Shown here piece by piece: positions 27,837 through 46,785 of a DNA stretch of 64,000 nt. The translations under genes were made by a program, and so were the position numbers. The stretch spans positions 1 to 64,000 of the forward strand of contig JAGOIF010000002.1 of assembly GCA_017995775.1 (NCBI GenBank). The letters are read 5' to 3'. The notes under the pieces are model-generated. The model made no database searches. It had not been told where the DNA came from and was given only the letters and a program-made list of their open reading frames with translations. The number at the start of each line of letters is the position of its first letter. Position 1 is the first letter of the stretch. Source of the stretch: Aliarcobacter sp. GTDB lineage: Bacteria; Campylobacterota; Campylobacteria; Campylobacterales; Arcobacteraceae.

Positions 27837-27912
27837 GACCCGTTAGCTCAGCCGGTAGAGCATCTCACTTTTAATGAGGGGGCCGATGGTTCGAATCCAT
27901 CACGGGTCACCA
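27837..27912 (+). tRNA. tRNA-Lys (TTT), copy 1
   Basis: A 76-base cloverleaf: acceptor GACCCGT/ACGGGTC, anticodon loop CTTTTAA with TTT, T-loop TTCGAAT, encoded CCA end. Confidence 0.97.
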
Positions 27913-27937
27913 TTTATTTATTCATTGTTGCAATCTT

Positions 27938-28012
27938 GGCCCCTTCATCTAACGGTTAGGATCTTGGATTTTCATTCCAATCACAGGGGTTCGAATCCCC
28001 TAGGGGTCACCA
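27938..28012 (+). tRNA. tRNA-Glu (TTC), copy 1
   Basis: A 75-base cloverleaf: acceptor GGCCCCT/AGGGGTC (one G-T pair), anticodon loop TTTTCAT with TTC, encoded CCA end. Confidence 0.97.
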
Positions 28013-28028
28013 AGCCTTTGCAACAAAT

Positions 28029-28104
28029 GGTCGATTAGCTCAGTTGGTAGAGCGCTACCCTTACAAGGTAGATGTCATAAGTTCGAGTCTTATATCGACC
28101 ACCA
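28029..28104 (+). tRNA. tRNA-Val (TAC), copy 1
   Basis: A 76-base cloverleaf: acceptor GGTCGAT/ATCGACC, anticodon loop CTTACAA with TAC, encoded CCA end. Confidence 0.97.
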
Positions 28105-28161
28105 CTTTAAATAATCATAAAATGCAGTAGCATTGGTTCTTAAAGTTTATTTCAGTGACTT

Positions 28162-28182
28162 CTATTTACATCTTGTAAATAG
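28162..28182 (+). other. Spacer hairpin between tRNA-Val and tRNA-Asp, copy 1
   Basis: CTATTTACA / TGTAAATAG form a perfect nine-base-pair stem with a TCT loop in the 90-base spacer. The identical element recurs at 28617-28637. It may be an RNA-processing or attenuation structure; it lacks a T-run. Confidence 0.5.
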
Positions 28183-28194
28183 TATTCTTATAGT

Positions 28195-28271
28195 GCGGTT
28201 GTAGTTTAGTTGGTTAGAATGCCTGCCTGTCACGCAGGAGGTCGAGGGTTCGAGTCCCTTCAACCGCGCCA
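28195..28271 (+). tRNA. tRNA-Asp (GTC), copy 1
   Basis: A 77-base cloverleaf: acceptor GCGGTTG/CAACCGC, anticodon loop CTGTCAC with GTC, discriminator G and encoded CCA. Confidence 0.97.
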
Positions 28272-28291
28272 CTTTTTGTTTATTCTTATGT

Positions 28292-28367
28292 GACCCGTTA
28301 GCTCAGCCGGTAGAGCATCTCACTTTTAATGAGGGGGCCGATGGTTCGAATCCATCACGGGTCACCA
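28292..28367 (+). tRNA. tRNA-Lys (TTT), copy 2
   Basis: Identical to the copy 455 bases upstream. Confidence 0.97.
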
Positions 28368-28392
28368 TTTATTTATTCATTGTTGCAATCTT

Positions 28393-28467
28393 GGCCCCTT
28401 CATCTAACGGTTAGGATCTTGGATTTTCATTCCAATCACAGGGGTTCGAATCCCCTAGGGGTCACCA
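28393..28467 (+). tRNA. tRNA-Glu (TTC), copy 2
   Basis: Identical to the copy 455 bases upstream. Confidence 0.97.
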
Positions 28468-28483
28468 AGCCTTTGCAACAAAT

Positions 28484-28559
28484 GGTCGATTAGCTCAGTT
28501 GGTAGAGCGCTACCCTTACAAGGTAGATGTCATAAGTTCGAGTCTTATATCGACCACCA
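28484..28559 (+). tRNA. tRNA-Val (TAC), copy 2
   Basis: Identical to the copy 455 bases upstream. Confidence 0.97.
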
Positions 28560-28649
28560 CTTTAAATAATCATAAAATGCAGTAGCATTGGTTCTTAAAG
28601 TTTATTTCAGTGACTTCTATTTACATCTTGTAAATAGTATTCTTATAGT

Positions 28650-28726
28650 GCGGTTGTAGTTTAGTTGGTTAGAATGCCTGCCTGTCACGCAGGAGGTCGA
28701 GGGTTCGAGTCCCTTCAACCGCGCCA
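28650..28726 (+). tRNA. tRNA-Asp (GTC), copy 2
   Basis: Identical to the copy 455 bases upstream. The T-rich stretch after it (28728-28742) may end the transcript. Confidence 0.97.
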
Positions 28727-28811: not shown

Positions 28812-30395
28812 ATGTTAAAAGCAAAAAGTTTATATCACTTAATTCTTTATAGTATATTATTTATTATTATACTTATCTCTTTTTTTACATTTATTATTAT
28901 AAATAATGCCCATGAAGAACTTCAAGATAAAATAAGTACTCTTAAAATAGACTATACAAATAGTCAAAAAGAACTAATAAAAAACGATGTTAATTATGTA
29001 ATAAATTTTATAACTTACTATAATAATAAATATAAAAACACAAAATCTCAAGATGAAATCAAAAAAGAAGTTTTAGAAGCATTAATACCACTTCGTGCAT
29101 CTGACAATACAAAAGATTATTTATTCATTTATGATTTTAATGGTTTAAATATATATAATCCTATTTCTAAAAATATTATTGCTAAACAATATTTGGAATT
29201 AAAAGAAAAAGAAAGAGAAAGCATTATAAAAGAGCTTATAGATGTTTCTAAAAAGCCTAATGGCGGATATACTGAATATCTTTGGTATAAAATAGACATT
29301 GAAAAAGATGTAAAGAAAGTATCTTTTTCTAATTCATATAAAGATTGGAATTGGACTATTGGAAAAGGTGTTTATTTAGATGAAATAGATAAATTAGTAA
29401 TTGAAAAAGAAGATGAATACAATCGAAAAATTTCTAACTATACCCTACAAATAACATCATTAACTATTATGCTAGTATTATATTCAATATTTATTTATAA
29501 AAATGCAACAATTTTAATTGTAAATGATGTAAAAGAGATTGGTAAATATTTCAAAGAATCTCAAAAAAATGATAATCCAATAAATGAAAATAAAATTATC
29601 TTTGGAGAATTCAAAGTAATTGCAAATTATGCAATGGATGCCATTAAGAATATTAAATTAAAAACCCACATGCTCGAAGATTTAAATAAGAATCTTGAAG
29701 ATAAAGTATCTGAAAAAACTAAAGAATTAACAAAATTAATTGATGCACAAAAGACTTTTATTAAAAATTCTGTACATGAAATAAATACTCCCTTATCAAT
29801 TATTCAAACAAATATTGATTTGTTAAAAATGAAAATACCAAATAATAAATATATCACAAATATAGAATCAGGCTCTAAAATAATTCAATACATTCATGAT
29901 GACTTATCTTATTTAGTAAAAAAAGATAGGGTTACATATAAAAAAGAGTATTTAGATTTTTCAAAAATATTAAAAGAAAGATTAGAGTTTTTCGATGAAA
30001 TTGCAATATCTAACACTTTAAATTTCATTCAAGATATAGAAGATGATATTTATATTAAATTTAACATCACTGAGCTTCAAAGAGTAATAGATAACAATCT
30101 ATCAAATGCAATAAAATACTCCTTTGCAAAATCATCTATTTTTATAAAACTAGCATATATTAATGATGACGAAATAGAATTTACAACAACAACTCATTCA
30201 AAGAAAATTGAGAATGTAAAAAAAATATTTGATGACTTTTATAGAGAAAATATTGCAAGGGGAGGATTTGGCTTAGGTCTAAAAATTGTAAAAGATATTT
30301 GTGATAAGAATTTAGTTATAATTAATCTTGATTCTAATGAAAAAAATACAAAATTTGCGTATAGGTTTAAAATAAATGAAGATACTATTACTTGA
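28812..30395 (+). CDS. Cache-domain membrane sensor histidine kinase
   Basis: This is a 527-residue kinase. Helix 1 (about residues 9-31) and helix 2 (about 212-232) flank a periplasmic region of roughly 180 residues with single-Cache features: DYLFIYDFNGLNIYNP, GGYTEYLWYK and WNWTIGKGVYLDEI. Such domains bind small organic acids or amino acids. After a coiled coil the H-box reads VHEINTPLSIIQ (about residue 325), then NNLSNAIKYS and GGFGLGLKIVKDICD of the ATPase domain. The last 20 bases overlap the response regulator gene, so the two form one two-component system. It opens the acetate gene island, so a carboxylate ligand such as acetate is a reasonable guess. That is inference from context. 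Confidence 0.87.
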   Translation: MLKAKSLYHLILYSILFIIILISFFTFIIINNAHEELQDKISTLKIDYTNSQKELIKNDVNYVINFITYYNNKYKNTKSQDEIKKEVLEALIPLRASDNTKDYLFIYDFNGLNIYNPISKNIIAKQYLELKEKERESIIKELIDVSKKPNGGYTEYLWYKIDIEKDVKKVSFSNSYKDWNWTIGKGVYLDEIDKLVIEKEDEYNRKISNYTLQITSLTIMLVLYSIFIYKNATILIVNDVKEIGKYFKESQKNDNPINENKIIFGEFKVIANYAMDAIKNIKLKTHMLEDLNKNLEDKVSEKTKELTKLIDAQKTFIKNSVHEINTPLSIIQTNIDLLKMKIPNNKYITNIESGSKIIQYIHDDLSYLVKKDRVTYKKEYLDFSKILKERLEFFDEIAISNTLNFIQDIEDDIYIKFNITELQRVIDNNLSNAIKYSFAKSSIFIKLAYINDDEIEFTTTTHSKKIENVKKIFDDFYRENIARGGFGLGLKIVKDICDKNLVIINLDSNEKNTKFAYRFKINEDTIT

Positions 30396-31038
30396 AGATG
30401 AATTAATGCTTAACAACGCCATTAGTGAATATTTAAAAAATATTGGACACATGGTTGAAAGTTTTTGCGATGGTCAAGAGGTTTTAGATAATGTAAATAG
30501 TTCATACGATTTGTTAGTACTTGACATAAATGTGCCAAGTATAGATGGATTTGAAATATTAGAACTGCTTAATAAACAAAAATTATATATTCCAACAATT
30601 TTTATATCTGCCTTAATTGATATTGAAGATATCAGTAAAGCATATGATTTGGGATGTAGAGAATATATTAAAAAACCTTTTCACTTAGGGGAATTAGGTA
30701 TTAAAATAAATCAAATTTTAAAAAAAGAACAAAATAACACTTCACATATTAGATTCTCAGAAAATTATTCTTATGCAAAAGATAAACAAACTTTATATTT
30801 TAATGGTGAACCTCAAAACTTAACTAAAAAACAATTAGAAATTATTCATATCTTAGCACTTAATATAAATATGATTGTAGATTTCGAAAGATTTAGAATG
30901 GATATTTGGGATGGAGAAAATATTGACAATCCTACAATACGAGCTGAAATATCAAGATTGAAAAAAGCATTAAAAGAAGATTTCATTAAAAATATAAGAG
31001 GTCTTGGCTACAAAATCGATAGATACTACTCAGTATAA
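30376..31038 (+). CDS. OmpR/PhoB-family response regulator
   Basis: This is a 220-residue DNA-binding regulator. The receiver (1-120) has the acidic pair LEDE, phospho-acceptor D in LVLDINVPSIDG (about residue 51), and lysine in YIKKPFHLGEL. The C-terminal winged helix (130-220) has LTKKQLEIIHIL, the recognition segment NPTIRAEISRLKKAL and the closing IRGLGYKI, classical for OmpR/PhoB proteins. Such regulators bind direct repeats about 11 bases apart. That is the geometry of the TGCTA-N6-TGCTA sites found before three acetate-related units in this island, so it is the leading candidate to bind them. The ATG lies inside the end of the kinase gene. Confidence 0.92.
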   Translation: MKILLLEDELMLNNAISEYLKNIGHMVESFCDGQEVLDNVNSSYDLLVLDINVPSIDGFEILELLNKQKLYIPTIFISALIDIEDISKAYDLGCREYIKKPFHLGELGIKINQILKKEQNNTSHIRFSENYSYAKDKQTLYFNGEPQNLTKKQLEIIHILALNINMIVDFERFRMDIWDGENIDNPTIRAEISRLKKALKEDFIKNIRGLGYKIDRYYSV

Positions 31039-31062
31039 AATCCTTATTTAAGGACTTTATAC
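31033..31062 (+). terminator. Hairpin after the response regulator
   Basis: GTATAAA-A-TCCTT and AAGGA-C-TTTATAC form a 12-pair stem with one mismatch and a four-base loop, overlapping the stop codon. No T-run follows, so it may only partly stop transcription. Confidence 0.45.
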
Positions 31063-31118
31063 GCTACAAATCAAAATATTCTTTTATTTATTCATAAAAA
31101 ACTTACAAAAAAATCAAT

Positions 31119-31151
31119 TGCTACCTTTTTGCTATTTACAACTATTATAAT
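31119..31151 (+). promoter_or_regulatory. TGCTA-N6-TGCTA direct repeat and TATAAT promoter of the DUF4212/SSS unit
   Basis: TGCTA at 31119-31123 and again at 31130-31134 are 11 bases apart, one helical turn. TATAAT lies at 31146-31151, starting 16 bases after the start of the second repeat, so that repeat occupies the -35 position as for an activator. The same repeat occurs at 38300-38315 and 45697-45712. Probable response-regulator site; unproven. Confidence 0.6.
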
Positions 31152-31209: not shown

Positions 31210-31464
31210 ATGAGTCCAGAAAAAGCACAAGCATACTGGAAAGAAAATATTTCTATGATAATTAAACTATTAGTAGTTTGGTTCTTAGTTTCTTTTGGTT
31301 GTGGGATTTTATTTGTAAACGAACTTAACGCAATAGAGATAAGTGGTGTTAAATTAGGTTATTGGTTCGCACAACAAGGTGCGATATATGTATTTGTTAT
31401 CTTAATTTTTGTTTACGTAAAAGTAATGACGGGAATTGATGAGAAATACGGTGTGAACGAATAA
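31210..31464 (+). CDS. DUF4212 small subunit of a sodium:solute symporter
   Basis: The 84-residue protein has two membrane helices (about residues 17-37 and 50-72). DUF4212 features include the start AQAYWKENISMIIKLLVVWF and the middle GVKLGYWFAQQGAIYVFV. DUF4212 proteins are encoded directly before SSS-family symporters of the VC_2705 type and are thought to be small accessory subunits. The gene has GGAGAG before its ATG and is followed 11 bases later by the symporter. It is the first gene behind the TGCTA direct-repeat promoter. Confidence 0.88.
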   Translation: MSPEKAQAYWKENISMIIKLLVVWFLVSFGCGILFVNELNAIEISGVKLGYWFAQQGAIYVFVILIFVYVKVMTGIDEKYGVNE

Positions 31465-31475: not shown

Positions 31476-33371
31476 ATGGAATTACAATCTTTAATTTACC
31501 TATTTGTAGGTGTTTCTTTTGCAATATATATCGGTATTGCATTATGGGCAAAAGCTGGTTCAACTAAAGACTTCTATGTTGCTGGTGGTGGAGTTCATCC
31601 AATTGCAAATGGTATGGCAACAGCAGCAGACTGGATGTCAGCAGCTTCGTTTATCTCATTAGCAGGAATCATTGCATTCAAAGGTTCTGATGGTGCTGCT
31701 TATTTAATGGGTTGGACAGGTGGATACGTTCTACTTGCTATGTTATTAGCTCCATATTTGAGAAAATTTGGTAAATTTACTGTTCCTGACTTCGTTGGAG
31801 ATAGATATTATTCTGATACAGCTAGATTAGTTGCTGTTGTTGGTGTTATTTTCGTTTCATTTACATATGTTGCTGGACAAATGAGAGGGGTTGGGATCGT
31901 ATTCTCAAGATTCTTACAAGTTGATGTAAATACAGGTGTACTTATTGGTATGGCTATTGTATTTTTCTACTCTGTTCTTGGTGGTATGAAAGGTATTACA
32001 TATACTCAAGTTGCACAATATGTTGTTATGATTTTTGCTTATATGATTCCTGCAATTTTCTTATCATTACAAGTAACTGATACATTTATACCTCAATTAG
32101 GTATTTTTGCAACTACAAGTTTTGCATTTAGTAATGGTGTACAAGTTATTCCTGAGGGAACATATCTTTTACATGCACTTGATCAATCTTTATTAGATTT
32201 AGGTTTTAAAGCATATACAGAGCCAGGTAACTTATGGAATATGTTTATGTTAACAACTGCATTAATGTTAGGAACAGCTGGGTTACCTCACGTTATTGTT
32301 AGATTCTTTACAGTTCCTACTGTTAAAGATGCTAGAGTATCTGCTGGGTGGGCATTGATATTTATAGCAATTATGTATACAACTATTTCATCTGTTGCAT
32401 CATTTTCAAGAATTAACTTAATTAAAAACGTTCAAAATGTTGAATATTCTGCGTTTGTTAATGATGAAGTTAAACATCCTGATGGTACTCATAACTATGG
32501 TAAATGGTTTAAAACATGGGAAGAAGGTGGTTTATTAGCATGGAATGATAGAAATGGCGATGGAAAAATTCAATATGCATCTGGTGCTGCATTTGAAGGA
32601 AAAGGTTCTAAGCCTGCATTTGATTTAGAGAATAAAGCTGCCGATGGACATAAGTTAACAACTAATCCTATGCCTGCTGCAAATGAAGCAGAACTTGCAA
32701 AAGGAAATGGAATAGCGAATGAAATATATGTTGATAATGACATTATGGTTCTTGCGAATCCTGAGATTGCAAACTTACCAAACTGGGTTATAGCATTTAT
32801 TGCAGCTGGAGGTTTAGCAGCAGCATTATCAACAGCAGCTGGGCTATTACTTGTTATTGCTTCAGCGATTTCACACGATTTAATGGGTCAAGTTATCTTT
32901 AAAGATAAAGCGACTGGTAAATCTACGTTAAATGAAAAAACTGAATTAATGTGGGCAAGAATATCAGCTGTAGTTGCTATTGCAATTGCTGGATATCTTG
33001 GAATAAACCCTCCAGGTTTCGTTGCACAAGTTGTTGCATTTGCCTTTGGTTTAGCAGCTGCTGCATTCTTCCCTACAATTATCCTTGGGGTTTTTGATAA
33101 GAGAATGAATAAAGAAGGTGCCATTGCAGGTATTGTAGTTGGATTAACGTTTACATTTGGATACATCGTATACTTTGTATTCTTAGGTGGAGCGAAAGAA
33201 GATTACTTATTTGGAATTGATCCAACTGGAATTGGAACAATAGGAACTTTATTACACCTAATTGTTGCATTCATTGTATCAAGAATGACTCCTCCTCCTC
33301 CTCAAGAGATTCAAGATCTTGTTGAGAGAATTAGGATTCCATCTGGTGCTGGTGAAGCAGTAGATCATTAA
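31476..33371 (+). CDS. Sodium:solute symporter of the DUF4212-linked (VC_2705-like) subfamily
   Basis: This is a 631-residue SSS-family transporter with about 13 membrane helices. Family motifs are DFYVAGGGVHPIANGMATAADWMSAASFI (about residues 31-60; key part AADWMSAASF), FVGDRYYS and TAGLPHVIVRFFTV. A long hydrophilic insertion of about 110 residues (near 315-425) contains the EF-hand-like loop DRNGDGKIQ, suggesting an external calcium-stabilised loop. It is paired with DUF4212 upstream. Relatives move acetate or other monocarboxylates with sodium. The acetate-rich neighbourhood supports an organic-acid substrate, which is not proven. A strong hairpin terminator follows. Confidence 0.87.
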   Translation: MELQSLIYLFVGVSFAIYIGIALWAKAGSTKDFYVAGGGVHPIANGMATAADWMSAASFISLAGIIAFKGSDGAAYLMGWTGGYVLLAMLLAPYLRKFGKFTVPDFVGDRYYSDTARLVAVVGVIFVSFTYVAGQMRGVGIVFSRFLQVDVNTGVLIGMAIVFFYSVLGGMKGITYTQVAQYVVMIFAYMIPAIFLSLQVTDTFIPQLGIFATTSFAFSNGVQVIPEGTYLLHALDQSLLDLGFKAYTEPGNLWNMFMLTTALMLGTAGLPHVIVRFFTVPTVKDARVSAGWALIFIAIMYTTISSVASFSRINLIKNVQNVEYSAFVNDEVKHPDGTHNYGKWFKTWEEGGLLAWNDRNGDGKIQYASGAAFEGKGSKPAFDLENKAADGHKLTTNPMPAANEAELAKGNGIANEIYVDNDIMVLANPEIANLPNWVIAFIAAGGLAAALSTAAGLLLVIASAISHDLMGQVIFKDKATGKSTLNEKTELMWARISAVVAIAIAGYLGINPPGFVAQVVAFAFGLAAAAFFPTIILGVFDKRMNKEGAIAGIVVGLTFTFGYIVYFVFLGGAKEDYLFGIDPTGIGTIGTLLHLIVAFIVSRMTPPPPQEIQDLVERIRIPSGAGEAVDH

Positions 33372-33469: not shown

Positions 33470-35290
33470 ATGAGTCTTCAAGATCAAGCTAGTTTTCTTT
33501 CAAATATCCATCCCTTTCAAGTTTTAACACCAGGTCAAATGGACAAATGTATAAGACATATGGATATAGCTTATTATCCTAAGAATTCTGTTTTAATAAG
33601 CCCTGAAAAAATATCAAGTCATTTTTTTATAATAATAAAAGGTTCTGTATACGAATACTCTGCTGATAATTTAGTAGTTATGGATTATCATCAAGAAGAT
33701 TCTTTTGATTCAAATTCTTTAATTTATGGAAAATGCAATAACACGTTTAAGGTTTATGAAGAACTAATTTGTTATGAAATTGAAAAAAATACTTTTCTAA
33801 GATTAATTGAAGAAAATCAACAATTCAAAGACTATTTTTTAAAAGATTTAGTAAATAAAATACAAACATTAAAAGATAAAGAATATACATCAGAACTATC
33901 ATCTTTTATGATTGCAAAAGTTGATGATACATTAATTCATGATGCATGTATCGTGGATGAAAATACAAAATTAATAGATGCAATACAACAATCTATGGAT
34001 TATAGAACTTCAACTATAATAGTAAAAAAACAAAGTGGAGAATATGGAATTATTACAGATTCTCTTTTAAAAATTAAAGTTTTACTAGAAGGAAGAGACT
34101 TAACAATTCCAGTTATTGATATTGCTATTTTCCCACTTTTAACTGTACATGATGATGATTATTTATTTGAAGCATTAACAATTTTAATTAAAAAAAATAT
34201 AAAAAGAATTGGTGTTACAAATAATAAAGGTGAGATGATAGGAATATTAGAACAAATGGATGTATTGTCTCATTTTGCAAACCATACTTATGTTGTTGAT
34301 TCAAAAATAAAAAGAGCTAAAGGCATAGAAGACTTAAAATCTGCAAGTATGGATTTTATAAATATAATAAAAAGTTTACAGATAAAAGGTGTAAAAGTAA
34401 ATCATATTTCAAATTTAATAGGTCAATTAAATACAAAAGTTTATCAAAAACTTTATAAATTAGTTTTACCAAATGAATTACAGAAAAATGCTTGTCTTAT
34501 TGTTATGGGAAGTGAAGGAAGAAACGAACAAATAATCAAAACTGATCAAGATAATGCACTTGTTATAAAAGATGGTGTTGATGTTGAACAATATAGACCT
34601 TATATGGAAGCAATTACTTCACATTTAATAGACTTTGGTTATCCAAGATGTGAAGGAAACATCATGGTTTCAAATCCATTTTGGTGTAAAACTGTAAGTG
34701 AATATAAAAGCGAAACAGCACGTTGGATAGAAGCTCCTGATATGCAAAACTATATGGATTTAGCAATATTTTTTGACTCTTTTGCCGTTGCGGGAGATAA
34801 AGATTTATTAATTAATTTAAAAGATGATTTATTTAATAAATTACATGATAAAGACGTATTTATGGCATATTTTGCAAAAGCAACTTTGGCTTTTGAAACT
34901 CCAAGTACCGTTGCTAATTTTATGACAAAAACTCATAATATTGATATCAAAAAAGCAGCAGTTTTCCCTATTGTTCAAGGGATTAGAAGTTTAGCATTAA
35001 GAGAAAAAATCAGAGAAACTACAACTGTTAAAAGAATCAAAATTCTAGAAGAAAAAAAAGTTTTACAAAAAGACAAGGCTGCTGAATTAATAGAAGCTTT
35101 TGATGTTGTAAATAATCTTAGACTAAAAGCTCAACTTGAACATATTCAAGATGGCAAAAAAATAAATAACGAAGTAGATACTCATACTCTAGGTAAAATT
35201 GAAAGAGATTTATTAAAAGATTCTTTTAAAATTGTTAATGAATTTAAAAAATTTATTAACTACACATTTAGAATAGATAAGATTTCATAA
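33470..35290 (+). CDS. DUF294-type protein: cyclic-nucleotide-like, CBS and nucleotidyltransferase domains (copy 1)
   Basis: This is a 606-residue cytoplasmic protein. A cNMP-binding-like domain (about 15-140, FLSNIHPFQVLTPGQ) is followed by a CBS pair (about 160-280). A GlnD-like nucleotidyltransferase core then reads VMGSEGRNEQIIKTDQDNAL (about 345-364; catalytic G-S and D-x-D residues present), and GNIMVSNPFW and a helical DUF294 C-terminal domain close it. Such proteins are repeatedly encoded beside ActP/Acs genes in proteobacteria, but their reaction and target are not known to me. An adenylyltransferase or uridylyltransferase acting on a protein is plausible. Its stop overlaps the exonuclease start (TAATG). 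A diverged paralogue lies at 40505-42346. Confidence 0.85.
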   Translation: MSLQDQASFLSNIHPFQVLTPGQMDKCIRHMDIAYYPKNSVLISPEKISSHFFIIIKGSVYEYSADNLVVMDYHQEDSFDSNSLIYGKCNNTFKVYEELICYEIEKNTFLRLIEENQQFKDYFLKDLVNKIQTLKDKEYTSELSSFMIAKVDDTLIHDACIVDENTKLIDAIQQSMDYRTSTIIVKKQSGEYGIITDSLLKIKVLLEGRDLTIPVIDIAIFPLLTVHDDDYLFEALTILIKKNIKRIGVTNNKGEMIGILEQMDVLSHFANHTYVVDSKIKRAKGIEDLKSASMDFINIIKSLQIKGVKVNHISNLIGQLNTKVYQKLYKLVLPNELQKNACLIVMGSEGRNEQIIKTDQDNALVIKDGVDVEQYRPYMEAITSHLIDFGYPRCEGNIMVSNPFWCKTVSEYKSETARWIEAPDMQNYMDLAIFFDSFAVAGDKDLLINLKDDLFNKLHDKDVFMAYFAKATLAFETPSTVANFMTKTHNIDIKKAAVFPIVQGIRSLALREKIRETTTVKRIKILEEKKVLQKDKAAELIEAFDVVNNLRLKAQLEHIQDGKKINNEVDTHTLGKIERDLLKDSFKIVNEFKKFINYTFRIDKIS

Positions 35291-35922
35291 TGTTTGATAA
35301 CTTTTTTAAAAATTGGAATAGAAAAAAATTAAAAGATAAAAAATATGATTTTTTATTTGACACTCCAATTGGGAATGAATATATTTGTCTAGATTGTGAA
35401 ACAAGTGGCTTAAATCCGAGAAAAGATGAAATTCTTTCGATTGGTGCTGTTCATATTAGAGATAATAAAATACTTATGAGAAAAACATTCAATATGTTTT
35501 TAAAACCTTCAAATGACATAAATGCAACATCAATAAAAATACATCATATCAGACCAATAGATTTAGAAAATGGTATGGATCCAAAGGATGCAATTTTACA
35601 ATTATTAGATTTTATTGGCTCTCGTCCAATAGTTGGTTATTATATTAAATTTGATGTTGCAATTATTTCAAGATATACAAAAAAATTCATTGGAATTAAA
35701 CTTCCAAATGAAACAATTGAAGTATCAACTTTGTATTATAAAACAAGAAAAAAAACTAGTGATTATGAGTTTATTGATCTAAAATTTGACACCATATTAA
35801 AAAATCTAAACATCCCAGCTTTAGGGAAACATGATGCATTAAATGATGCAATTATGACATCAATGATGTTTTTAAAATTAAAAGATTTAACTCCTGCAAA
35901 AACAACTTTTTACACAAGTTGA
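35290..35922 (+). CDS. DnaQ-like DEDDh 3'-5' exonuclease (copy 1)
   Basis: This is a 210-residue exonuclease-fold protein. Active-site motifs are CLDCETSGLNPRKDEILSIGAV (Exo I, key residues D-x-E near residue 38), IVGYYIKFDVAI (Exo II aspartate) and GKHDALNDAI (Exo III, H and D). All four acidic residues and the histidine are intact, so it should cut DNA or RNA or a nucleotide-like substrate. It is translationally coupled to the DUF294 protein, a pairing seen beside acetate genes in other bacteria. A role as the remover of a modification placed by the nucleotidyltransferase is an inference, not known. Confidence 0.86.
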   Translation: MFDNFFKNWNRKKLKDKKYDFLFDTPIGNEYICLDCETSGLNPRKDEILSIGAVHIRDNKILMRKTFNMFLKPSNDINATSIKIHHIRPIDLENGMDPKDAILQLLDFIGSRPIVGYYIKFDVAIISRYTKKFIGIKLPNETIEVSTLYYKTRKKTSDYEFIDLKFDTILKNLNIPALGKHDALNDAIMTSMMFLKLKDLTPAKTTFYTS

Positions 35923-36102: not shown

Positions 36103-36417
36103 ATGAACAAGGACTTAGTACAAAAAATTAAATCTAATCCTAAATATCAAGAGTTAGTTTCAAAGAGAAATTCTTTTTCTTTAAAATTATCACTTTTTGT
36201 TTTGGTAATGTTTTATGCATACATTGTAGTTATTGCATTTGACAAAGAACTTTTAGCGACAAAAATTGGGGAAGGTGTAATGACGGTAGCGTTTCCAGTA
36301 GGAGCTGCAATTATTATAATTAGTTTTATAACAACGTTGATTTATGTAAATCGAGCAAATAATGAATTTGAAGATTTAACAAATGAAATTAAAGAAGATG
36401 TAAAGGATTTACTATAA
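36103..36417 (+). CDS. DUF485 small membrane protein, ActP partner (copy 1)
   Basis: The 104-residue protein has two membrane helices (about residues 27-49 and 62-84). The DUF485 pattern is [19 protein letters not shown] followed by [18 protein letters not shown] and an internal [27 protein letters not shown]485 proteins (YjcH in E. coli) are encoded immediately before acetate permease ActP. Its stop overlaps the ActP start by one base. The promoter probably includes TATAAT at 36036-36041. A GGGGAG ribosome site is present. It is a paralogue of the gene at 38393. Confidence 0.92.
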
Positions 36418-38066
36418 TGTTAAAAATTATTACACTATTAAGTTTATTTGCACTTGGATTATTTGCAGCAGGTGATGCAACATTCGAGGGTAAAAGAGAT
36501 TTAAATATTTCTGCAATTATAATGTTTTTCATCTTTATTGCTGGAACATTAGGAATCACAAAATGGGCTGCTAGTAAAACAAAATCTGCTTCAGATTTCT
36601 ATACAGCAGGTGGAGGAATCACTGGATTCCAAAATGGTATGGCAATTGCTGGAGATTATATGTCAGCGGCGTCTTTCCTAGGTATTTCTGGAATGATTTA
36701 CTTAAGTGGATATGATGGTTTAATTTATGCTGTTGGATTCCTTGTTGGTTGGCCTGTAATTTTATTCTTAATGGCTGAAAAATTAAGAAACTTAGGTAAA
36801 TTTACATTTACTGATATTGCTGCATATAGATTAGATCAAACTAAAATCAGAATTTTAGCTGCTTTTGGTTCTTTATCTGTTGTAACTTTATATCTAATCG
36901 CTCAAATGGTTGGAGCTGGAAAATTAATCCAAATCTTATTTGGTATGGATTATGAGTACGCGGTTATCCTTGTTGGTGTTATGATGATTATTTATGTAAC
37001 ATTTGGTGGAATGTTAGCTACAACTTGGGTACAAATTATCAAAGCTGTATTATTACTTTCAGGTGTTACTTTCATGGGTCTTATGGTAATGATTCATTAC
37101 AATTTCTCTTTCGGAGATTTAGCTACTCAAGCAGTTGCAGTTCATGAAAAAGGTCAAGCTATTATGGCTCCTGGTGGATTTATAACAGACCCTATTTCTG
37201 CAATTTCTTTAGGTATGGCGTTAATGTTAGGAACTGCTGGTTTACCACATATCTTAATGAGATTCTTTACTGTTGGAAATGCTAAAGAAGCTAGAAAATC
37301 TGTTGTTTATGCAACTGGATTTATTGGTTACTTCTATTTAATTATTGCTGTTATTGGTTTAGGTGCGATTGTATTCTTAAACTCACCAGATGGTGCTCAA
37401 TACTTTAAAGATGGTAAGCTAATTGGTGGTGCTAATATGGCTGCTATTCACTTATCACATGTTGTTGGTGGAGATATTTTCTTAGGATTTATTTCAGCTG
37501 TTGCATTTGCTACTATTTTAGCGGTTGTTTCAGGATTAACACTAGCAGGTGCATCATCAATATCTCATGATATTTATGCAATTGTAATGAAAAAAGGTAA
37601 AGCTACTGAAGCTGCTGAAATTAAAGTTTCAAAAAGATCAGTAATCGTTATTGGTATTGTTGGAGTTATTTTAGGAATTGCTTTTGAAAAACAAAATATT
37701 GCATTCATGGTTGGTCTTGCATTTGCTATTGCTGCATCTGCTAACTTCCCTATTTTATTCCTTTCAATTTACTGGAAGAAATTAACAACTAGAGGTGCGT
37801 TTATTGGTGGATTTATTGGTCTTATAACTGCTGTTGTTCTTGTAATCTTAAGTCCAACTGTATGGGTTGAAATTCTAGGAAATGCAAAAGCAATTTTCCC
37901 ATATAAACACCCTGCGTTATTCTCAGTAACTGCGGCATTTGTTTCTATTTGGTTCTTCTCAATTACTGACAAATCAGAAAGTGCTAAAAAAGAAATCGAA
38001 TCATATGATGCTCAAAATGTTAGAGCTGAAACTGGTATTGGTGCAGACGGAGCTGTTTCTCACTAA
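36417..38066 (+). CDS. actP: Cation/acetate symporter ActP (copy 1)
   Basis: This is a 549-residue SSS-family transporter with a hydrophobic leader ([17 protein letters not shown]) and about 13 helices. Motifs are [30 protein letters not shown] (key part [12 protein letters not shown]), [24 protein letters not shown] and [14 protein letters not shown]. ActP imports acetate with a cation and accepts related short monocarboxylates. It is cotranscribed with DUF485. The C-terminus ends in [13 protein letters not shown], nearly the same as in the second copy. A hairpin terminator follows. Both copies look intact, so dosage or differential regulation rather than decay is likely. Confidence 0.93.
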
Positions 38067-38099: not shown

Positions 38100-38299
38100 T
38101 ATTTCTATCTACTAAAAAATTATTAAATCTTTCATACACTAATTATCTTAATAAATTATAAAATTTTTAAACTAAATTAAATAATTTATAATCTATTTTT
38201 GTGTTACTAATCTACAAATCATTACACAAATTTTACACAATTATCAAAATATATCTATCTAATTTCCAACATTGAATGTATAATCACTTACTTTTAATT

Positions 38300-38315
38300 T
38301 GCTATTTTAATGCTA
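38300..38315 (+). promoter_or_regulatory. TGCTA-N6-TGCTA direct repeat upstream of DUF485/ActP copy 2
   Basis: TGCTATTTTAATGCTA holds TGCTA twice, 11 bases apart. The spacer TTTTAA is identical to that of the pta site. Candidate -10 sequences TATTAT (38322-38327) or TATGGT (38325-38330) follow at slightly shorter spacing than in the other two sites. Confidence 0.55.
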
Positions 38316-38392
38316 TGGTATTATTATGGTTTATTTTAAAAATGATAATAATATGTTATTTATTTATTATCAACTTAGAAAAAGGAAGCAGA

Positions 38393-38707
38393 ATGAATGA
38401 CGAATTAGTAGACAGAATTGAATCTAATCCTAAATATATTGAATTAGTTTCAAAAAGAAATAGTCTGGGAATTAAACTTGGTATTTTTGTATTAGTTATG
38501 TTTTATGCATATATTGTAATTATTGCTTTTAACAAAGAAATTTTATCAGCAAAAATTGGTGATGGTGTTACTACTATTGCATTTCCAATAGCTTTAGCTA
38601 TTTTAGTTCTTAGTTTCATCACAACTTTAATTTATGTGAGAAAAGCAAATGGTGAATTCGAAGATTTAACTAATGAAATAAAAAAAGACGTAAAGGATTT
38701 AATCTAA
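38393..38707 (+). CDS. DUF485 small membrane protein, ActP partner (copy 2)
   Basis: The start is placed at the ATG at 38393, which has AAAGGAAG just upstream and gives a 104-residue protein, exactly the length of copy 1. Starting earlier would add an unlikely hydrophobic leader. It has the same two-helix DUF485 layout ([37 protein letters not shown]). It precedes the second ActP with a one-base stop/start overlap. It is the first gene behind the TGCTA repeat at 38300, unlike copy 1. Confidence 0.92.
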
Positions 38708-40377
38708 TGTTAAAAATACTAACACTAACTTTAATTTTTGCAATATCTTTATTTGCAGCAGGTGATGCAACATTTGATGCAGTAAAAAGAGACCTTAATA
38801 TTCCTGCGATTGTTATGTTCTTAGTTTTTATTGCTGGAACTTTAGGTATTACTTATTGGGCAGCTAGAAAAACAAAATCTGCAAGTGATTTTTATACAGC
38901 AGGTGGAGGAATTACTGGTTTTCAAAATGGTTTAGCAATTGCTGGAGACTATATGTCTGCTGCTGCGTTTCTTGGGGTTTCTGGTCTTATTTACATGAAA
39001 GGTTATGATGGAGTAATTTATGCTGTATCTTTCTTGGTTGGTTGGCCTGTAATTTTATTTTTCATGGCTGAAAAATTAAGAAACTTAGGTAAATTTACTT
39101 TTGCTGATATTGCTGCTTATAGATTAGGACAAAAAGAGATTAGAACTTTAGCTGCGTTTGGTTCTTTATCTGTTGTTATTTTATATCTTATTGCACAAAT
39201 GGTTGGGGCTGGAAAACTAATTCAAGTTTTATTTGGTATGGAATATGAATATGCTGTATTTATGGTTGGGGCATTAATGATTATTTATGTAACTTTTGGT
39301 GGAATGTTAGCTACTACTTGGGTACAAATTATTAAAGCATGTTTACTATTATCAGGTGTTTCATTTATGGCTGTTATGGTTTTATATCATTTTGACTTCT
39401 CATTTGAAGCATTAGCTGCAAAAGCTGTTGAAAATCATAAATCTGGAGAAGCAATATTAAGTCCAGGTGGATTCTTAACTGATCCTATTTCTGCTATTTC
39501 TTTAGGTATGGCCTTAATGCTAGGAACTGCTGGTCTTCCTCACGTTTTAATGAGATTCTTTACAGTTGGTAATGCAAAGGAAGCTAGAAAATCTGTTGTT
39601 TATGCAACTGGATTTGTTGCATATTTCTGGGTAATTATCACAATTGTTGGATTCGGTGCAATTGCATTTTTAAATACGGCTGAAGGTGCACAATATTTTG
39701 ATGGAGCAAAAGCTTATATGGATGGTGGAGCTTTATTTGGTGGAAGTAATATGGCTTCTGTTCACTTATCTCATATGTTAGGTGGAAATGCATTCTTAGG
39801 ATTTATTTCAGCTGTTGCATTTGCTACTATTTTAGCAGTTGTTTCAGGATTAACACTTGCAGGTGCAAGTGCTATATCACATGATATTTATTCAAATGTT
39901 ATCAATCCAAATGCAAGTGACGAACAAGTTGTAAAAATCTCTAAAATCACTGTTGTTATAATAGGTGTTATTGGTGTTACTTTAGGAATTGCTTTTGAAT
40001 CACAAAATATTGCTTATATGGTTGGATTAGCATTTGGTATTGCAGCATCTGCAAACTTCCCTATTTTATTCCTTTCTATTTACTGGAGAGGATTAACTAC
40101 AAGAGGTGCATTTATTGGTGGATTCTTAGGATTAATTACTGCTGTTGCTTTAGTAATCTTAGGACCAAATGTTTGGGTACAAATTTTAGGAAATGAAAAA
40201 GCGATTTTCCCTTATGCGCACCCTGCACTATTCTCTGTAACTGTTGCATTTGTTTCTATTTGGTTATTCTCAAAACTTGATAACTCTCCTAGAGCTAAAC
40301 ATGAAAGACAATTATTTAGAGCACAAAACGTAAGAGCTAATACTGGTATTGGTGCAGCTGGAGCTGTTTCTCACTAA
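38707..40377 (+). CDS. actP: Cation/acetate symporter ActP (copy 2)
   Basis: This is a 556-residue paralogue of the transporter at 36417 with long identical stretches ([43 protein letters not shown]). The two differ in a small insertion ([15 protein letters not shown] near residue 340) and in the middle of the C-terminal half. It should import acetate or related monocarboxylates with a cation across the inner membrane. Its upstream region carries the TGCTA direct repeat, so it may be the regulated copy. The end is followed by a hairpin and then the second DUF294 unit. Confidence 0.93.
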
Positions 40378-40504: not shown

Positions 40505-42346
40505 ATGAGTATGCTAGAACAAAAAACATTTATTTCTTCAATTCATCCTTTTGAAAATTTAACAATACATGAACTTGATCATCTTGTGGAAAGTATTGAT
40601 ATTGTATATTTTAAAGAAAAACAAATTGTACAAAAACCAGATCAAGAACCTGAATATCTTTTTTTTATTTTAAAAGGATTAGTTCAAGAAAAACATGAAG
40701 ATGAAGTTTTATCGATTTATTCAAAAAATGAAATTTTTGATTCTGTTTCTTTAATAGAAAATCATTCAAAAAATACATTTGTTACAACAGAAGAAACAAT
40801 TTGTTATACACTTCCTAGAGAAATTTTTATTGCTACATTACAAGAAAATCAAATATTAAAAAAATATTTCTTTCAATCTATTTCTGAGAAATTAAACAAT
40901 AATATTCATTATGAAAAGAATAAAGAAATGGCAAATATTATGGTTGCAAAGGTTAAAGATGCAACTATTCATAAAGCTGTAATTATTGATACTAATAAAT
41001 CTATTTTTGAAGCTGCTCAAATAATCAAAAAAGAAAAAGTTCCTACAATTTTACTAAAAGATGAAAATGGTGAAATGTATATTGTAACTGATTCGGATTT
41101 CAGACAAAAAGTAATTTTAAATAGAATGGATTTTGATGATAAAATTATCAAAATTGCAACTAAAGGTCTAATTTATATAAATGAAAATGATTTTTTATTT
41201 AATGCACAGTTAATCATGGCAAAACATGGACTTAAAAGAGTTGTTGTAAAAAATGATAATGATGAAATTATTGGAATTATAGATCAAATATCTTTATCTT
41301 CATTTTTTGCTACAAATACTTTTTCAGTTTCAAATAAAATTGTTAAAGCAGAAACGGTAGAAGAACTAAAAGAAGCTTCATTGTCTTTTATAAAAATTAT
41401 CAAATCATTAAATGCAAAAGGTGTAAAGATTGAATTTATTTCAAGATTGGTAAATCAATTAAATAAAAAACTTCTAGATAAATTATATAAGTTATTAGCG
41501 CCAAGTGAATTATATGAAAAATCTTGTTTAGTTGTTATGGGAAGTGAAGGAAGAGGAGAACAAATTTTAAAAACTGATCAAGATAATGCAATAATCATAA
41601 ATGATAATTGTACTATTGATGAAAAAGAGTTATTAGAATTTACTCATAATTTCACAGAAACCTTAGTTGATTTTGGATTTCCTAGATGTGAAGGAAATAT
41701 TATGGTTTCAAATCCTTTTTGGTGTAAGAAAGAATCAGAATTTAGAAATTCTATTTTCAAATGGGTAAATGAACCAAGTGGTGATAATTTTATGAATATT
41801 GCAATTTTCTATGATGCTATTTGTGTTTCAGGAAATAGAGATTTAGTTCTTAATTTAAAAGAATATTTATTTAATGTTGCAGGTAATTCTCAAATTTTTA
41901 ATGCTCATTTTGCAAAAGTAATAAGTAATTTTGATGTTCCTTTAGGATTCTTTGATGGTTTTATATTAAATAATAAAGATGATAAACATAAAAATGAAAT
42001 TGACATTAAAAAAGGCGGTATTTTTATTATTGTTCAAGGAATTCGTTCTCTTAGTTTAGAGCACAAACTTCTAAATACAAGCACTGCAAAAAGAATTCAA
42101 AGATTAATTGAAATTGGTGTTTTAGAACCAGAATTAGGGAAAGAATTAACAATGGCGTTTAATTTTCTAACAAATTTAAAATTAAAATCAAATTTAGAAA
42201 AACTTGATAAAAATTTAACTATTGATAATTATATAAATCCTAATAATTTAAATACTATGGAAAAAGATTTATTAAAAGAATCCTTTAAAATAGTAAATAA
42301 ATTAAAGAAAAAACTAGAATTCCACTTTAAGTTAAACTATGTTTAG
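40505..42346 (+). CDS. DUF294-type CBS/nucleotidyltransferase protein (copy 2)
   Basis: This is a 613-residue diverged paralogue of the protein at 33470. The same domain order is seen: cNMP-binding-like segment (FISSIHPFENLTIHE), CBS pair with PTILLKDENGEMYIVTD, nucleotidyltransferase core MGSEGRGEQILKTDQDNAI (about residues 350-368) and GNIMVSNPFWCK, and a helical DUF294 C-terminus. Catalytic residues match copy 1. It has its own likely promoter (TATAAT at 40473-40478). It overlaps the second exonuclease gene by eight bases and is followed by two acetate kinase genes, tying this module to acetate activation. Confidence 0.85.
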   Translation: MSMLEQKTFISSIHPFENLTIHELDHLVESIDIVYFKEKQIVQKPDQEPEYLFFILKGLVQEKHEDEVLSIYSKNEIFDSVSLIENHSKNTFVTTEETICYTLPREIFIATLQENQILKKYFFQSISEKLNNNIHYEKNKEMANIMVAKVKDATIHKAVIIDTNKSIFEAAQIIKKEKVPTILLKDENGEMYIVTDSDFRQKVILNRMDFDDKIIKIATKGLIYINENDFLFNAQLIMAKHGLKRVVVKNDNDEIIGIIDQISLSSFFATNTFSVSNKIVKAETVEELKEASLSFIKIIKSLNAKGVKIEFISRLVNQLNKKLLDKLYKLLAPSELYEKSCLVVMGSEGRGEQILKTDQDNAIIINDNCTIDEKELLEFTHNFTETLVDFGFPRCEGNIMVSNPFWCKKESEFRNSIFKWVNEPSGDNFMNIAIFYDAICVSGNRDLVLNLKEYLFNVAGNSQIFNAHFAKVISNFDVPLGFFDGFILNNKDDKHKNEIDIKKGGIFIIVQGIRSLSLEHKLLNTSTAKRIQRLIEIGVLEPELGKELTMAFNFLTNLKLKSNLEKLDKNLTIDNYINPNNLNTMEKDLLKESFKIVNKLKKKLEFHFKLNYV

Positions 42347-42956
42347 AAAAATCTATAACTATTTCAATAAACGAAATTTAAAAGATAATAAATATTTATT
42401 TTTATTTGATGAACCAAATGATGAAGAGTTTGTTTGTTTTGATTGCGAAACAACTGGACTTGACCCAAAAATAGATGATATTATCTCAATTGGTGCTGTT
42501 ATAATAAAAAATAACACTATTGTATCAAGTAAAAAATTTGTAAGATTTGTAAAACCAAAAACAGATCTTCAAGCAGATGCTATAAAAATACATCATATTA
42601 GAGTATGTGATTTAACAAATGCTGGTGATATTGATAATATGATTATTGAATTTTTAGAATTTATTGGTAATAGAACTTTAGTTGGTTATTTCTTGGAATT
42701 TGATATTAATATGATTAACAAATATTTAAAACCAATGTTAGGAATAAAACTTCCAAATAAAGCACTTGAAGTTTCTGCTATTTATCATGATTATAAAATG
42801 GAAATAATTCCTCAAGGACACATTGATTTAAGATTCAACACTATTATGGATGAATTAAAAATTCCAAATTTTGGAAAACACGATGCATTTAATGATGCAC
42901 TAATGACTTCAATGATTTTTGTAAAATTAAAAAATCTACCAAATGTAAAAATATAA
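42339..42956 (+). CDS. DnaQ-like DEDDh 3'-5' exonuclease (copy 2)
   Basis: The 205-residue paralogue of the nuclease at 35290 keeps Exo I (CFDCETTGLDPKIDDIISIGAV, with D-x-E), Exo II (LVGYFLEFDINMI) and Exo III (GKHDAFNDALMT). All catalytic residues are intact. It overlaps the DUF294 gene by eight bases and lies 26 bases before the first acetate kinase, so it shares its transcript. Two independently diverged exonuclease/DUF294 pairs in one island argue that the pair functions together. Confidence 0.86.
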   Translation: MFRKIYNYFNKRNLKDNKYLFLFDEPNDEEFVCFDCETTGLDPKIDDIISIGAVIIKNNTIVSSKKFVRFVKPKTDLQADAIKIHHIRVCDLTNAGDIDNMIIEFLEFIGNRTLVGYFLEFDINMINKYLKPMLGIKLPNKALEVSAIYHDYKMEIIPQGHIDLRFNTIMDELKIPNFGKHDAFNDALMTSMIFVKLKNLPNVKI

Positions 42957-42982: not shown

Positions 42983-44173
42983 ATGTTAATATTTGTATTA
43001 AATGCAGGTTCATCCTCTTTAAAATACCAATTAATTAATGCTGAAACTTCTGAATTAATAGCAAGTGGAATAGTTGAAAGAATTGGAATAGATGGAATTT
43101 TAAAACATGTAATTTCAGAAAATAAAAAGATAACTATTGAATCGCATATTCCATCTCACAAAGAAGCTATTGAACTTATTTTAGAAACATTAACCCATGA
43201 TGAAACTAAAACTATAAATTCAATTGATGAAATCCAAGCAGTTGGACATAGAGTTGCCCATGGTGGAGAATATTTTAAAGAATCAACTATTGTCACTGAT
43301 GAAGTAATAAGAAAGATTGAAGATTTAATTCCTTTAGCACCACTTCATAATCCTGCGAATATATTAGGTATGAAAATTTGTAGAGAATTAATGCCAAATG
43401 TTCCCAATGTTGCAGTTTTTGATACAGCGTTTCATCAAACAATGTCGGAAACACACTTTTTATTTCCAGTTCCCCATGAAGACTATACAGAACACCATTT
43501 AAGAAAATATGGTTTTCATGGAACATCTCATTATTATGTTTCAAAAGAAGCGATAAAACTTTTAGGAAATAAAAAAAATAGTAAAGTAATTGTATGTCAT
43601 TTAGGAAATGGCTCATCTGTTTGTGCTGTTAAAGATGGAAAATCTTTAAATACAACAATGGGATTAACTCCACTTGGTGGTTTAATGATGGGAACAAGAA
43701 GTGGAGATATTGATGCTGGAGTAATTCCATATTTAATGGATAGAAAAGGTATGGATACTCATCAGATTATTGATTATTTAAATAAAAAATCTGGAATTTT
43801 GGGAGTTTCTGGAATTAGTTCTGATTTAAGAGAGATTATTAGTGCGGCAAATGATGGTGATGAAAGAGCGAAAGTTACAATTGATATGATGTGTAACAGA
43901 GTTAAAAAATATATTTGTTCATATTCTGGATTATTAGGTGGAGCTGATGCAATAGTTTTTACTGCTGGTATTGGAGAAAATTCTGCTTTAATAAGAGAAA
44001 AAGTTTGTTTTAATTTAGATTTTATGGGTATTGAACTTGATAGTGAAAAAAATGAGATAAAAACTCATGAGCCTAGAGAAATTAGTAAAAATAGTTCAAA
44101 AACAAAAATTTTTGTTATTCCTACAAATGAAGAGTTAGTTATCGCAAAAGATACATATAATCTTGTAAAATAA
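42983..44173 (+). CDS. ackA: Acetate kinase (copy 1)
   Basis: Acetate kinase interconverts acetate plus ATP and acetyl phosphate. The 396-residue protein has the N-terminal phosphate loop LNAGSSSLKY, GHRVAHGG, FDTAFHQTM, FHGTSHYYVS, HLGNGSS and GTRSGDIDAG with the active-site arginine. The C-terminal PTNEELVI carries the metal-binding glutamate, so it looks fully active. It follows the exonuclease gene by 26 bases with an AAGGAAA ribosome site and is probably cotranscribed with it. It is close to copy 2 (44296) and more distant from copy 3 (46786). Confidence 0.93.
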   Translation: MLIFVLNAGSSSLKYQLINAETSELIASGIVERIGIDGILKHVISENKKITIESHIPSHKEAIELILETLTHDETKTINSIDEIQAVGHRVAHGGEYFKESTIVTDEVIRKIEDLIPLAPLHNPANILGMKICRELMPNVPNVAVFDTAFHQTMSETHFLFPVPHEDYTEHHLRKYGFHGTSHYYVSKEAIKLLGNKKNSKVIVCHLGNGSSVCAVKDGKSLNTTMGLTPLGGLMMGTRSGDIDAGVIPYLMDRKGMDTHQIIDYLNKKSGILGVSGISSDLREIISAANDGDERAKVTIDMMCNRVKKYICSYSGLLGGADAIVFTAGIGENSALIREKVCFNLDFMGIELDSEKNEIKTHEPREISKNSSKTKIFVIPTNEELVIAKDTYNLVK

Positions 44174-44295
44174 AGTCGAAGAACTTAAAATTTGAAATTT
44201 ATTTCAAAATAGAACTAATTACAAAAGCAAACTTAGATTTAAGATTAACTACAATAGCAAAAAAATTTAAATCGAAAATTATAAAGGAAAAATTT

Positions 44296-45489
44296 ATGTT
44301 AGTATTTATATTAAATGCTGGTTCATCTTCTTTAAAATATCAATTAATCAACGCAAAAACTTCTGAATTAAAAGCAAGTGGATTAGTTGAAAGAATTGGA
44401 ATAGATGGAATATTAAAACACGAAGTTGGAGAAAATAAAAAACTAACTTTCGAACTTCCAATTCCTACACATAAAGAAGCAATAGAATTGGTTCTTAGAA
44501 TTTTAACAAATGATGAAACAAAAGTTATTAATTCAATCACTGAAATCGAAGCTATCGGACATAGAGTTGTACATGGTGGAGAATATTTTAAAAACTCTAC
44601 TTTAATTACAGAAGATGTAATAGATAAAATCAAAAAACTTATTCCATTAGCTCCTTTACACAATCCCGCTCACGTTATAGGAATTGAGATTTGTAGAGAA
44701 TTAATGCCAAATGTTCCAAATGTTGCAACTTTTGATACAGCGTTTCATCAAACAATGCCAGAAGAAAACTTCTTATATGCAGTTCCTTATGGAGATTATA
44801 CAGAACATCATTTAAGAAAATATGGTTTTCATGGAACATCACATTATTATGTTTCAAATGAAGCAGTAAAAATATTAAATAAAAAAAATAGCAAAATTAT
44901 TGTTTGCCATTTAGGAAATGGTTCATCTGTTTGTGCTGTTCAAGATGGAAAGTCTATTAGCACTTCTATGGGATTAACTCCACTTGAGGGATTAATCATG
45001 GGAACAAGATGTGGAGATATTGATGCAGGTGTAATTCCTTATTTGATGGAAAGAAAAGGATTAGATAGTAATCAAATCATTAATTATTTAAATAAGAAAT
45101 CAGGAATTTTAGGTGTTTCTGGAATTAGCTCTGATTTAAGAGAAGTAATAAAAGCTTCAAATGATGGAGATAAAAGATCAAAAATCGCTATTGAAATGTT
45201 ATGCAGTAGAATTAAAAAATATCTTTGTTCTTATGCTGGATTAATGCATGGTGTTGATGCTATTTGTTTCACTGCTGGTATTGGAGAAAATTCTGATTTA
45301 ATAAGAGAAAAAGTTTGTGAAGGTTTAGACTTCATGGGGATCGAAATTGATACTGAAAAAAACAAAGTTAGAACTCATGGAATTAGAGAAATAAATAAAG
45401 AATCTTCAAAAACTAAAATATTCATTATTCCAACAAATGAAGAGTTAGTGATTGCAAAAGATACATATAATCTTGTAAAATCTAAATAA
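44296..45489 (+). CDS. ackA: Acetate kinase (copy 2)
   Basis: This 397-residue paralogue of copy 1 has all active-site motifs (LNAGSSSLKY, GHRVVHGG, FDTAFHQTM, FHGTSHYYVS, HLGNGSS, PTNEELVI). In the arginine motif it reads MGTRCGDIDAG, a serine-to-cysteine change next to the catalytic arginine that is probably tolerated. It lies 122 AT-rich bases after copy 1. AAGGAAA precedes the ATG. Similarity to copy 1 over the whole length indicates a local tandem duplication. A palindrome follows at 45525. Confidence 0.92.
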   Translation: MLVFILNAGSSSLKYQLINAKTSELKASGLVERIGIDGILKHEVGENKKLTFELPIPTHKEAIELVLRILTNDETKVINSITEIEAIGHRVVHGGEYFKNSTLITEDVIDKIKKLIPLAPLHNPAHVIGIEICRELMPNVPNVATFDTAFHQTMPEENFLYAVPYGDYTEHHLRKYGFHGTSHYYVSNEAVKILNKKNSKIIVCHLGNGSSVCAVQDGKSISTSMGLTPLEGLIMGTRCGDIDAGVIPYLMERKGLDSNQIINYLNKKSGILGVSGISSDLREVIKASNDGDKRSKIAIEMLCSRIKKYLCSYAGLMHGVDAICFTAGIGENSDLIREKVCEGLDFMGIEIDTEKNKVRTHGIREINKESSKTKIFIIPTNEELVIAKDTYNLVKSK

Positions 45490-45524
45490 TTTGTTACAAA
45501 TTAGCAATTTAATTAAAAATTGTG

Positions 45525-45551
45525 GATGATGTACATTTTTTGTACATCATC
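45525..45551 (+). terminator. Hairpin after acetate kinase copy 2
   Basis: GATGATGTACA / TGTACATCATC is a perfect 11-base-pair stem with a TTTTT loop, 36 bases after the stop codon. No clear T-run follows. It could also be a palindromic operator. Confidence 0.5.
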
Positions 45552-45696
45552 TAATAATTAATCTACATTAGAAGCATCTATTCCTATATCTTATTACCTT
45601 TTTTCACACATTCAGAATTTTTCTACAATTATGTACTTTATATGTACTTTTTTTGAAATTTGCTATAAAATTATACTTAGTAAGATTATAAGTAAA

Positions 45697-45729: not shown

Positions 45730-45764
45730 CTTCCACAAACTTCTAAAACAAAGGATAAGTCAAC

Positions 45765-46760: not shown

Positions 46761-46785
46761 TTAAACTCAAAAAAGGAAGTAATAT

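Follow-up and report, generated by a model that had tools for sequence, protein, structure and literature searches.

The window, a 64,000-nucleotide stretch of an Aliarcobacter genome, contains a two-component system with a cluster of organic-acid genes directly behind it, all on the forward strand. The sensor histidine kinase (28812–30395; 527 aa) has a periplasmic sCache_2 domain (4.4e-24 in Pfam) set between two transmembrane segments, which we assigned by eye, followed by HisKA (8e-8) and HATPase_c (8.6e-12), the layout of an sCache_2 sensor histidine kinase. Motif positions placed the phospho-acceptor at His322 in HEINTPLS, with both N and G boxes present. The start of the regulator gene (30376–31038) overlaps the end of the kinase gene, and its 220-aa product is an OmpR/PhoB-type response regulator, with Response_reg (PF00072, 1.7e-20) and Trans_reg_C (PF00486, 1.8e-10) both above the Pfam cut-off, Asp50 in the LDINVP strand and the recognition region DNPTIRAEISRLKK. 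Directly before the kinase gene, a Lys-Glu-Val-Asp tRNA cluster occurs twice in tandem (27837–28726), apparently as near-identical copies.

Behind the regulator lie genes for a DUF4212 small subunit (31210–31464; TIGR03647) and a VC_2705-family SSS transporter (31476–33371; TIGR03648), both assigned with Pfam and NCBIfam. Pfam calls and coordinates thus bear out the preliminary description, which had placed a Cache kinase and an OmpR regulator directly ahead of a DUF4212/SSS operon. These genes are followed by a cNMP-binding/CBS/DUF294 nucleotidyltransferase-like protein (33470–35290) and a DnaQ-type exonuclease (35290–35922), both from Pfam, and then by DUF485a with the acetate-type symporter ActPa (36103–38066; Pfam and NCBIfam) and DUF485b with ActPb (38393–40377; Pfam and homologue starts, the DUF485b start being re-assigned from 38276 to 38393). 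ActPa and ActPb scored 905.5 and 875.1 bits, passing the NCBIfam PRK09395 cut-off of 750, and both fell under the stricter TIGR02711 cut-off. A second cNMP/CBS/DUF294 protein with a second DnaQ-type exonuclease (40505–42956), two acetate kinase paralogues (42983–45489), pta (45765–46760) and a third ackA (46786–47988) complete the cluster. Three acetate kinase genes are therefore grouped around pta (42983–47988), and the two cNMP/CBS/DUF294–exonuclease pairs upstream each lie near a transporter set. No Acs above the family cut-off was found in the home genome, and acs was dropped as a target there.

A direct repeat at organic-acid gene promoters

The direct repeat TGCTA-N6-TGCTA (TGCTACCTTTTTGCTA; 31119–31134), the proposed regulator site at DUF4212–SSS, reads TTGCTAC-CTTT-TTGCTAT in full, giving 7-bp half-sites, a 4-bp spacer and an 11-bp period, and is followed by a TATAAT −10 box (31146–31151) 10 bp past the second half-site (31119–31151: TGCTACCTTTTTGCTATTTACAACTATTATAAT). 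A pho box is built in the same way, with 7-bp half-sites and a 4-bp spacer (11-bp period) that replace the −35 element 10 bp before the −10 box. The regulator is likewise of the OmpR/PhoB type and half-site length, period and −10 spacing agree, but the half-site here is TTGCTAY, and signal and regulon are unrelated. A direct repeat in this promoter had been noted in the preliminary description, whose interval (30376–31151) stops with the last base of the TATAAT, and we found it with no mismatch in 33 of the 33 genomes in which the DUF4212 start could be placed. The same promoter layout recurs in nearly all genomes examined, with a single changed half-site base in one locus (L065).

Two more exact copies with the same half-sites and spacing occur in the window. 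The first (TGCTATTTTAATGCTA; 38300–38315) lies upstream of DUF485b–ActPb and has no −10 box at the usual spacing, which counts against the explanation developed below, while the second, of identical sequence, forms the pta–ackA promoter together with a TATAAT at 45724–45729 (45697–45729). Allowing up to one mismatch, the window holds four repeats compared to 5.8 expected and so is not enriched; three of the four are exact, and all three precede organic-acid genes. Repeats followed by TATAAT 9–13 bp on were found twice genome-wide, both times in the window, and in 31 of 31 genus genomes, compared to zero matches of a reversed-pattern control in the home genome and in each of the others. This control and the conservation rule out chance as the source of the repeat. 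Further exact copies in the home genome were set aside, being inside coding sequence (C61 and C69) or having no −10 box at the usual spacing (C45, C53:10978 and C184, left out of the count). A gene for a sulfite-oxidase-like molybdoenzyme lies ~150 bp downstream of the C45 copy (G000:C45:9865-9880; L072).

At up to one mismatch, the repeat was found before DUF485a in 22 of 36 genomes and before DUF485b in 16 of 36, counts in which some assignments are mixed because the two genes are paralogues; no repeat lies upstream of DUF485a–ActPa in the home genome. The pta repeat is positioned 63–75 bp upstream in all ten genus genomes with pta sequence examined. At the same threshold, none was detected before the kinase (38 genomes), the regulator (38), DUF294 (38), DnaQ (36), ActPa (35), ActPb (35) or CBS (35) genes, and the SSS gene itself was preceded by one only in the 3 of 38 genomes where it directly follows the site. 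The 38 kinase genes thus gave no support for autoregulation through the same site. OmpR/PhoB-family regulators bind direct repeats with a period of about 10–11 bp, and the 11-bp-period repeat conserved at the target promoters is a candidate site for such a regulator.

Conservation in the genus and beyond

The kinase–regulator pair lies directly upstream of DUF4212–SSS, in the same orientation, in 27 of 27 genus genomes with DUF4212. Together with the phylogenetic footprint, this synteny supports two-component control of organic-acid transport, which had previously been proposed from position alone. The regulator is 85–95% identical in the 26 other DUF4212-carrying genus genomes, and 79 of the 104 genomes of the family carry an ortholog (E ≤ 1e-90). 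One regulator gene (L051, genome G025) reads in two overlapping frames, which suggests a frameshift or a sequencing error.

In about half of these other genomes the SSS protein falls to 40–49% identity beside neighbours at 66–89% (L053–L065), indicating either replacement of the transporter or its rapid drift next to a retained regulator. A recognisable DUF4212 is lacking in three genomes (G015, G016 and G026), which keep the regulator, a divergent SSS protein (31–32%) and the repeat, here 10–17 bp behind the regulator coding sequence (L153 in G026). These cases (L053–L065 and L151–L153) suggest a fixed regulatory slot in which the transporter is exchanged or changes fast.

Regulator relatives from other families are 51–62% identical and, although not all of them have the repeat, it lies about 60–125 bp downstream where present. 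Behind it we found DUF485–ActP (L163), DUF485–ActP–acs (L220) or an OprD porin, the latter followed by DUF485–ActP in L167, L169 and L170; the acs gene in another family ties the regulon to acetate. Acs and the porin of L145 and L147 were recognised by eye from sequence. With an OprD-type or similar porin behind the repeat (L145, L147, L167, L169 and L170), outer- and inner-membrane uptake are joined, the inner part being seen in L167, L169 and L170. In one relative (L150), what follows the repeat behind the regulator is a chemoreceptor-like gene. The pairing of regulator and predicted site is argued most strongly by the presence of the repeat next to a large number of diverged relatives, in most cases ahead of an uptake gene.

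Candidate ligands of the Cache sensor

An AlphaFold model of the sensor (pLDDT 83) matches sCache structures. By sequence and predicted fold, the nearest are 2qhk/4exo, 4k08 and 5g4y, domains of chemoreceptors with pyruvate, acetate and propionate as bound ligands (PMC5062169). In PscD, the carboxylate is hydrogen-bonded by Tyr90, His103, Tyr143 and Lys156 (PMC5062169). Sequence alignments place three of these four, Tyr90, Tyr143 and Lys156, at Tyr103, Tyr156 and Lys169 of the kinase, all invariant in an alignment of 30 relatives. Of the flanking tryptophans, PscD Trp145 corresponds to the invariant Trp158 and Trp92 is replaced by Phe105, while Tyr107 matches an extra pyruvate-contacting tyrosine of the Vibrio protein. 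The His103 position is variable, being Asn116 in the kinase and Ser, Asp or Tyr in relatives. The sensor thus shares its fold and most carboxylate-contact residues with sCache_2 chemoreceptors (PscD, McpP, Adeh_3718 and a V. parahaemolyticus MCP), but its output is a histidine kinase, the His103 equivalent is not conserved and Trp92 is Phe.

Based on the PscD-type contact residues and the nearest structures, the ligand is likely a C2–C3 monocarboxylate; the predicted pocket lacks the usual His103 (Asn116) and would fit any of these acids, so that acetate is one candidate among them. Acetate should not be assumed, since A. butzleri was reported not to grow on acetate and grows on lactate and pyruvate (PMC2147049), and for the same reason a growth test on acetate could be uninformative in some species.

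A small structured RNA behind the repeat

In most genus genomes, one repeat with TATAAT has no open reading frame behind it and is instead followed by an element of ~70 nt that ends in a hairpin and, in many genomes, a T run. The hairpin loop, UUUUUGCGACCUU, is nearly invariant (GCGACCUU). Compensatory changes occur in seven of the ten stem pairs of the alignment, and 98.6% of cells are paired, compared to 81% with shuffling and a maximum of 56% with sliding. With a covariance model, a single copy was detected in each of 30 genus genomes out of 31, the exception being a genome that is 54% complete; one other genus also gave a strong match. Each of the 30 copies examined, eight of them outside the model-building set, is preceded by the exact repeat, at a distance that hardly varies, and by a −10-like box. 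Four of the RNA loci gave no Rfam match up to E = 1. The home copy (G000:C53:94230-94301, minus strand) lies outside the window beside bioF-like and carbonic-anhydrase-like genes and has a partly diverged loop (GUGGCAACCUU) and a −10 box reading TACAAT.

The loop is complementary to ribosome-binding sequences, which makes the element a possible anti-Shine–Dalgarno sRNA. Among 374 genes in 400 kb of one relative, the DUF485–ActP leader ranked third by duplex energy with the loop. Across 26 genomes, it was the only leader among ten cluster genes to pair clearly more strongly with the loop than with shuffled loops (−11.0 compared to −7.5 kcal/mol), a comparison of ten genes in which the genomes are not independent and three to seven of them do not fit. 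We therefore treat the DUF485–ActP leader as a putative target, as a hypothesis; DUF4212 was dropped, its pairing being little better than with shuffled loops.

Relation to known systems

The nearest architectural precedent is MctS/MctR of Rhizobium leguminosarum, in which a Cache-domain kinase and its regulator adjoin and regulate the SSS monocarboxylate transporter gene mctP (PMC9100948). A Cache kinase beside an SSS transporter is therefore a kind of system already known. The NCBIfam MctS model (NF052443) matches only the sensor half of our kinase (residues 10–224; 5.8e-25) and, at 87.5 bits against a cut-off of 700, the kinase is not MctS. The transporters also differ, being MctP there and DUF4212/VC_2705-type SSS and ActP here, and the account consulted of the Rhizobium system mentions neither a direct repeat nor pta or an RNA (PMC9100948).

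CrbS/CrbR (MxtR/ErdR) of Vibrio and Pseudomonas governs acetate uptake and activation, with DUF485-actP and a putative signal-transduction protein in its regulon; CrbS senses through a fused SLC5/STAC module, and CrbR is a LuxR-family protein that needs an imperfect inverted repeat (PMC5715377). The gene set here is similar, but the sensor is an sCache_2 domain in a kinase with no SSF match and hence no CrbS-type SLC5/SSS fusion, and an OmpR-type regulator and a direct repeat take the place of a LuxR-family protein and an inverted-repeat ACTU site. The contrast with CrbS/CrbR drawn in the preliminary description therefore stands. Within the Campylobacterota, BumS/BumR of Campylobacter jejuni is a two-component system responding to short-chain fatty acids, a resemblance by description, and differs in that BumS acts as a phosphatase only and detects isobutyrate and isovalerate (PMC11796366). 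In the open-licence literature we found no match for the combination of an OmpR-type regulator, a pho-box-like repeat, a transporter–pta(–acs) regulon and a small RNA, and no regulator of organic-acid uptake for Arcobacter and relatives in the open-licence papers searched.

Discussion

The genes, their order, the conserved repeat, its promoter specificity and the RNA structure were all observed directly by computation. From them, we consider it likely that the kinase–regulator pair is a periplasmic carboxylate-sensing two-component system acting through a paired site on the transporter, pta and RNA promoters. The sCache_2 domain would bind a small monocarboxylate such as acetate, pyruvate or lactate, and the kinase would then phosphorylate Asp50 of the regulator. 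A regulator dimer would occupy two TTGCTAY half-sites 11 bp apart, in place of a −35 box, and recruit RNA polymerase as PhoB does at the pho box. The predicted targets are DUF4212–SSS, pta–ackA and DUF485–ActP, plus the small structured RNA outside the window. Binding of the repeat, activation by that binding and the ligand are what we infer; very probably, the sensor and its DNA-binding partner switch on the uptake and use of acetate-like acids through the conserved paired site.

The repeat might instead be read by another OmpR-type regulator, the adjacent pair merely sharing its neighbourhood. One such protein is a paralogue on contig C107 of the home genome, 57% identical and with a recognition region (DNATIRAEVNRVK) resembling that of the regulator (DNPTIRAEISRLK), and it may share sites with it. 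Repeats also persist in genomes without a close regulator ortholog, as in genus g2, where more distant relatives may therefore read the same site. We nonetheless regard this as quite unlikely: three genomes with no second regulator match at E ≤ 1e-40 (G007, G015 and G026) still have repeats by the transporter genes and the RNA, two of them (G015 and G026) at pta as well, and none of the paralogues examined has a repeat in the 500 bp downstream, whereas one stands close behind the true regulator, other families included. Far less probable still is that an SSS-fused kinase of the CrbS/CrbR or CbrA type controls these genes from elsewhere while the local pair does something else. Pseudomonas CrbR does control like genes, namely DUF485-actP and a putative signal-transduction protein (PMC5715377), but its site is an inverted repeat for a LuxR-family protein rather than a direct one, and the 95%-complete home genome carries three SSS genes and no more; all three lie in the window and none contains a kinase domain. 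CrbS is therefore missing from this genome and was rejected as a hidden regulator.

Repression rather than activation is also rather unlikely. The half-site nearest the −10 box occupies the −35 region, where binding could block polymerase, but the 10-bp spacing to the −10 box matches PhoB-type activator sites and no good −35 hexamer remains at the promoter, both points being judged from general knowledge of OmpR/PhoB activators. It is likewise improbable, although less so, that the hairpin behind the third site is only a two-way terminator of a convergent yraN-like gene and not a small RNA; it may still double as that terminator. It lies just past the stop of this opposite-strand gene in most genomes and has T runs on both sides. 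Yet, leaving aside its T-rich start, the loop is the same in all but one of 22 sequences, a constancy that a terminator would not require, there is no yraN-like gene next to the home copy, and the upstream repeat and −10-like box accompany all 30 copies examined.

If the activating two-component reading is extended to the RNA, a mixed protein and RNA circuit can be tentatively proposed, in which the regulator would drive the transporters, pta and the ~70-nt RNA, and the loop would pair with the DUF485–ActP ribosome-binding site and tune acetate uptake post-transcriptionally. If true, such a circuit would bring with it a new sRNA family and, for the organic-acid metabolism of Campylobacterota, a new feed-forward loop. 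The structured RNA itself is conserved and has no counterpart in Rfam; the analysis assigns it a predicted regulator and one candidate target. In Arcobacter and related bacteria organic-acid uptake is a central part of metabolism, and the footprint names a regulator for it, defines a DNA site and outlines a short regulon. Our results suggest that a sensor, regulator and site unrelated to those of Pseudomonas CrbS/CrbR may control a similar gene set (DUF485–ActP, with acs in another family), and that such wiring reaches across several families of Campylobacterales.
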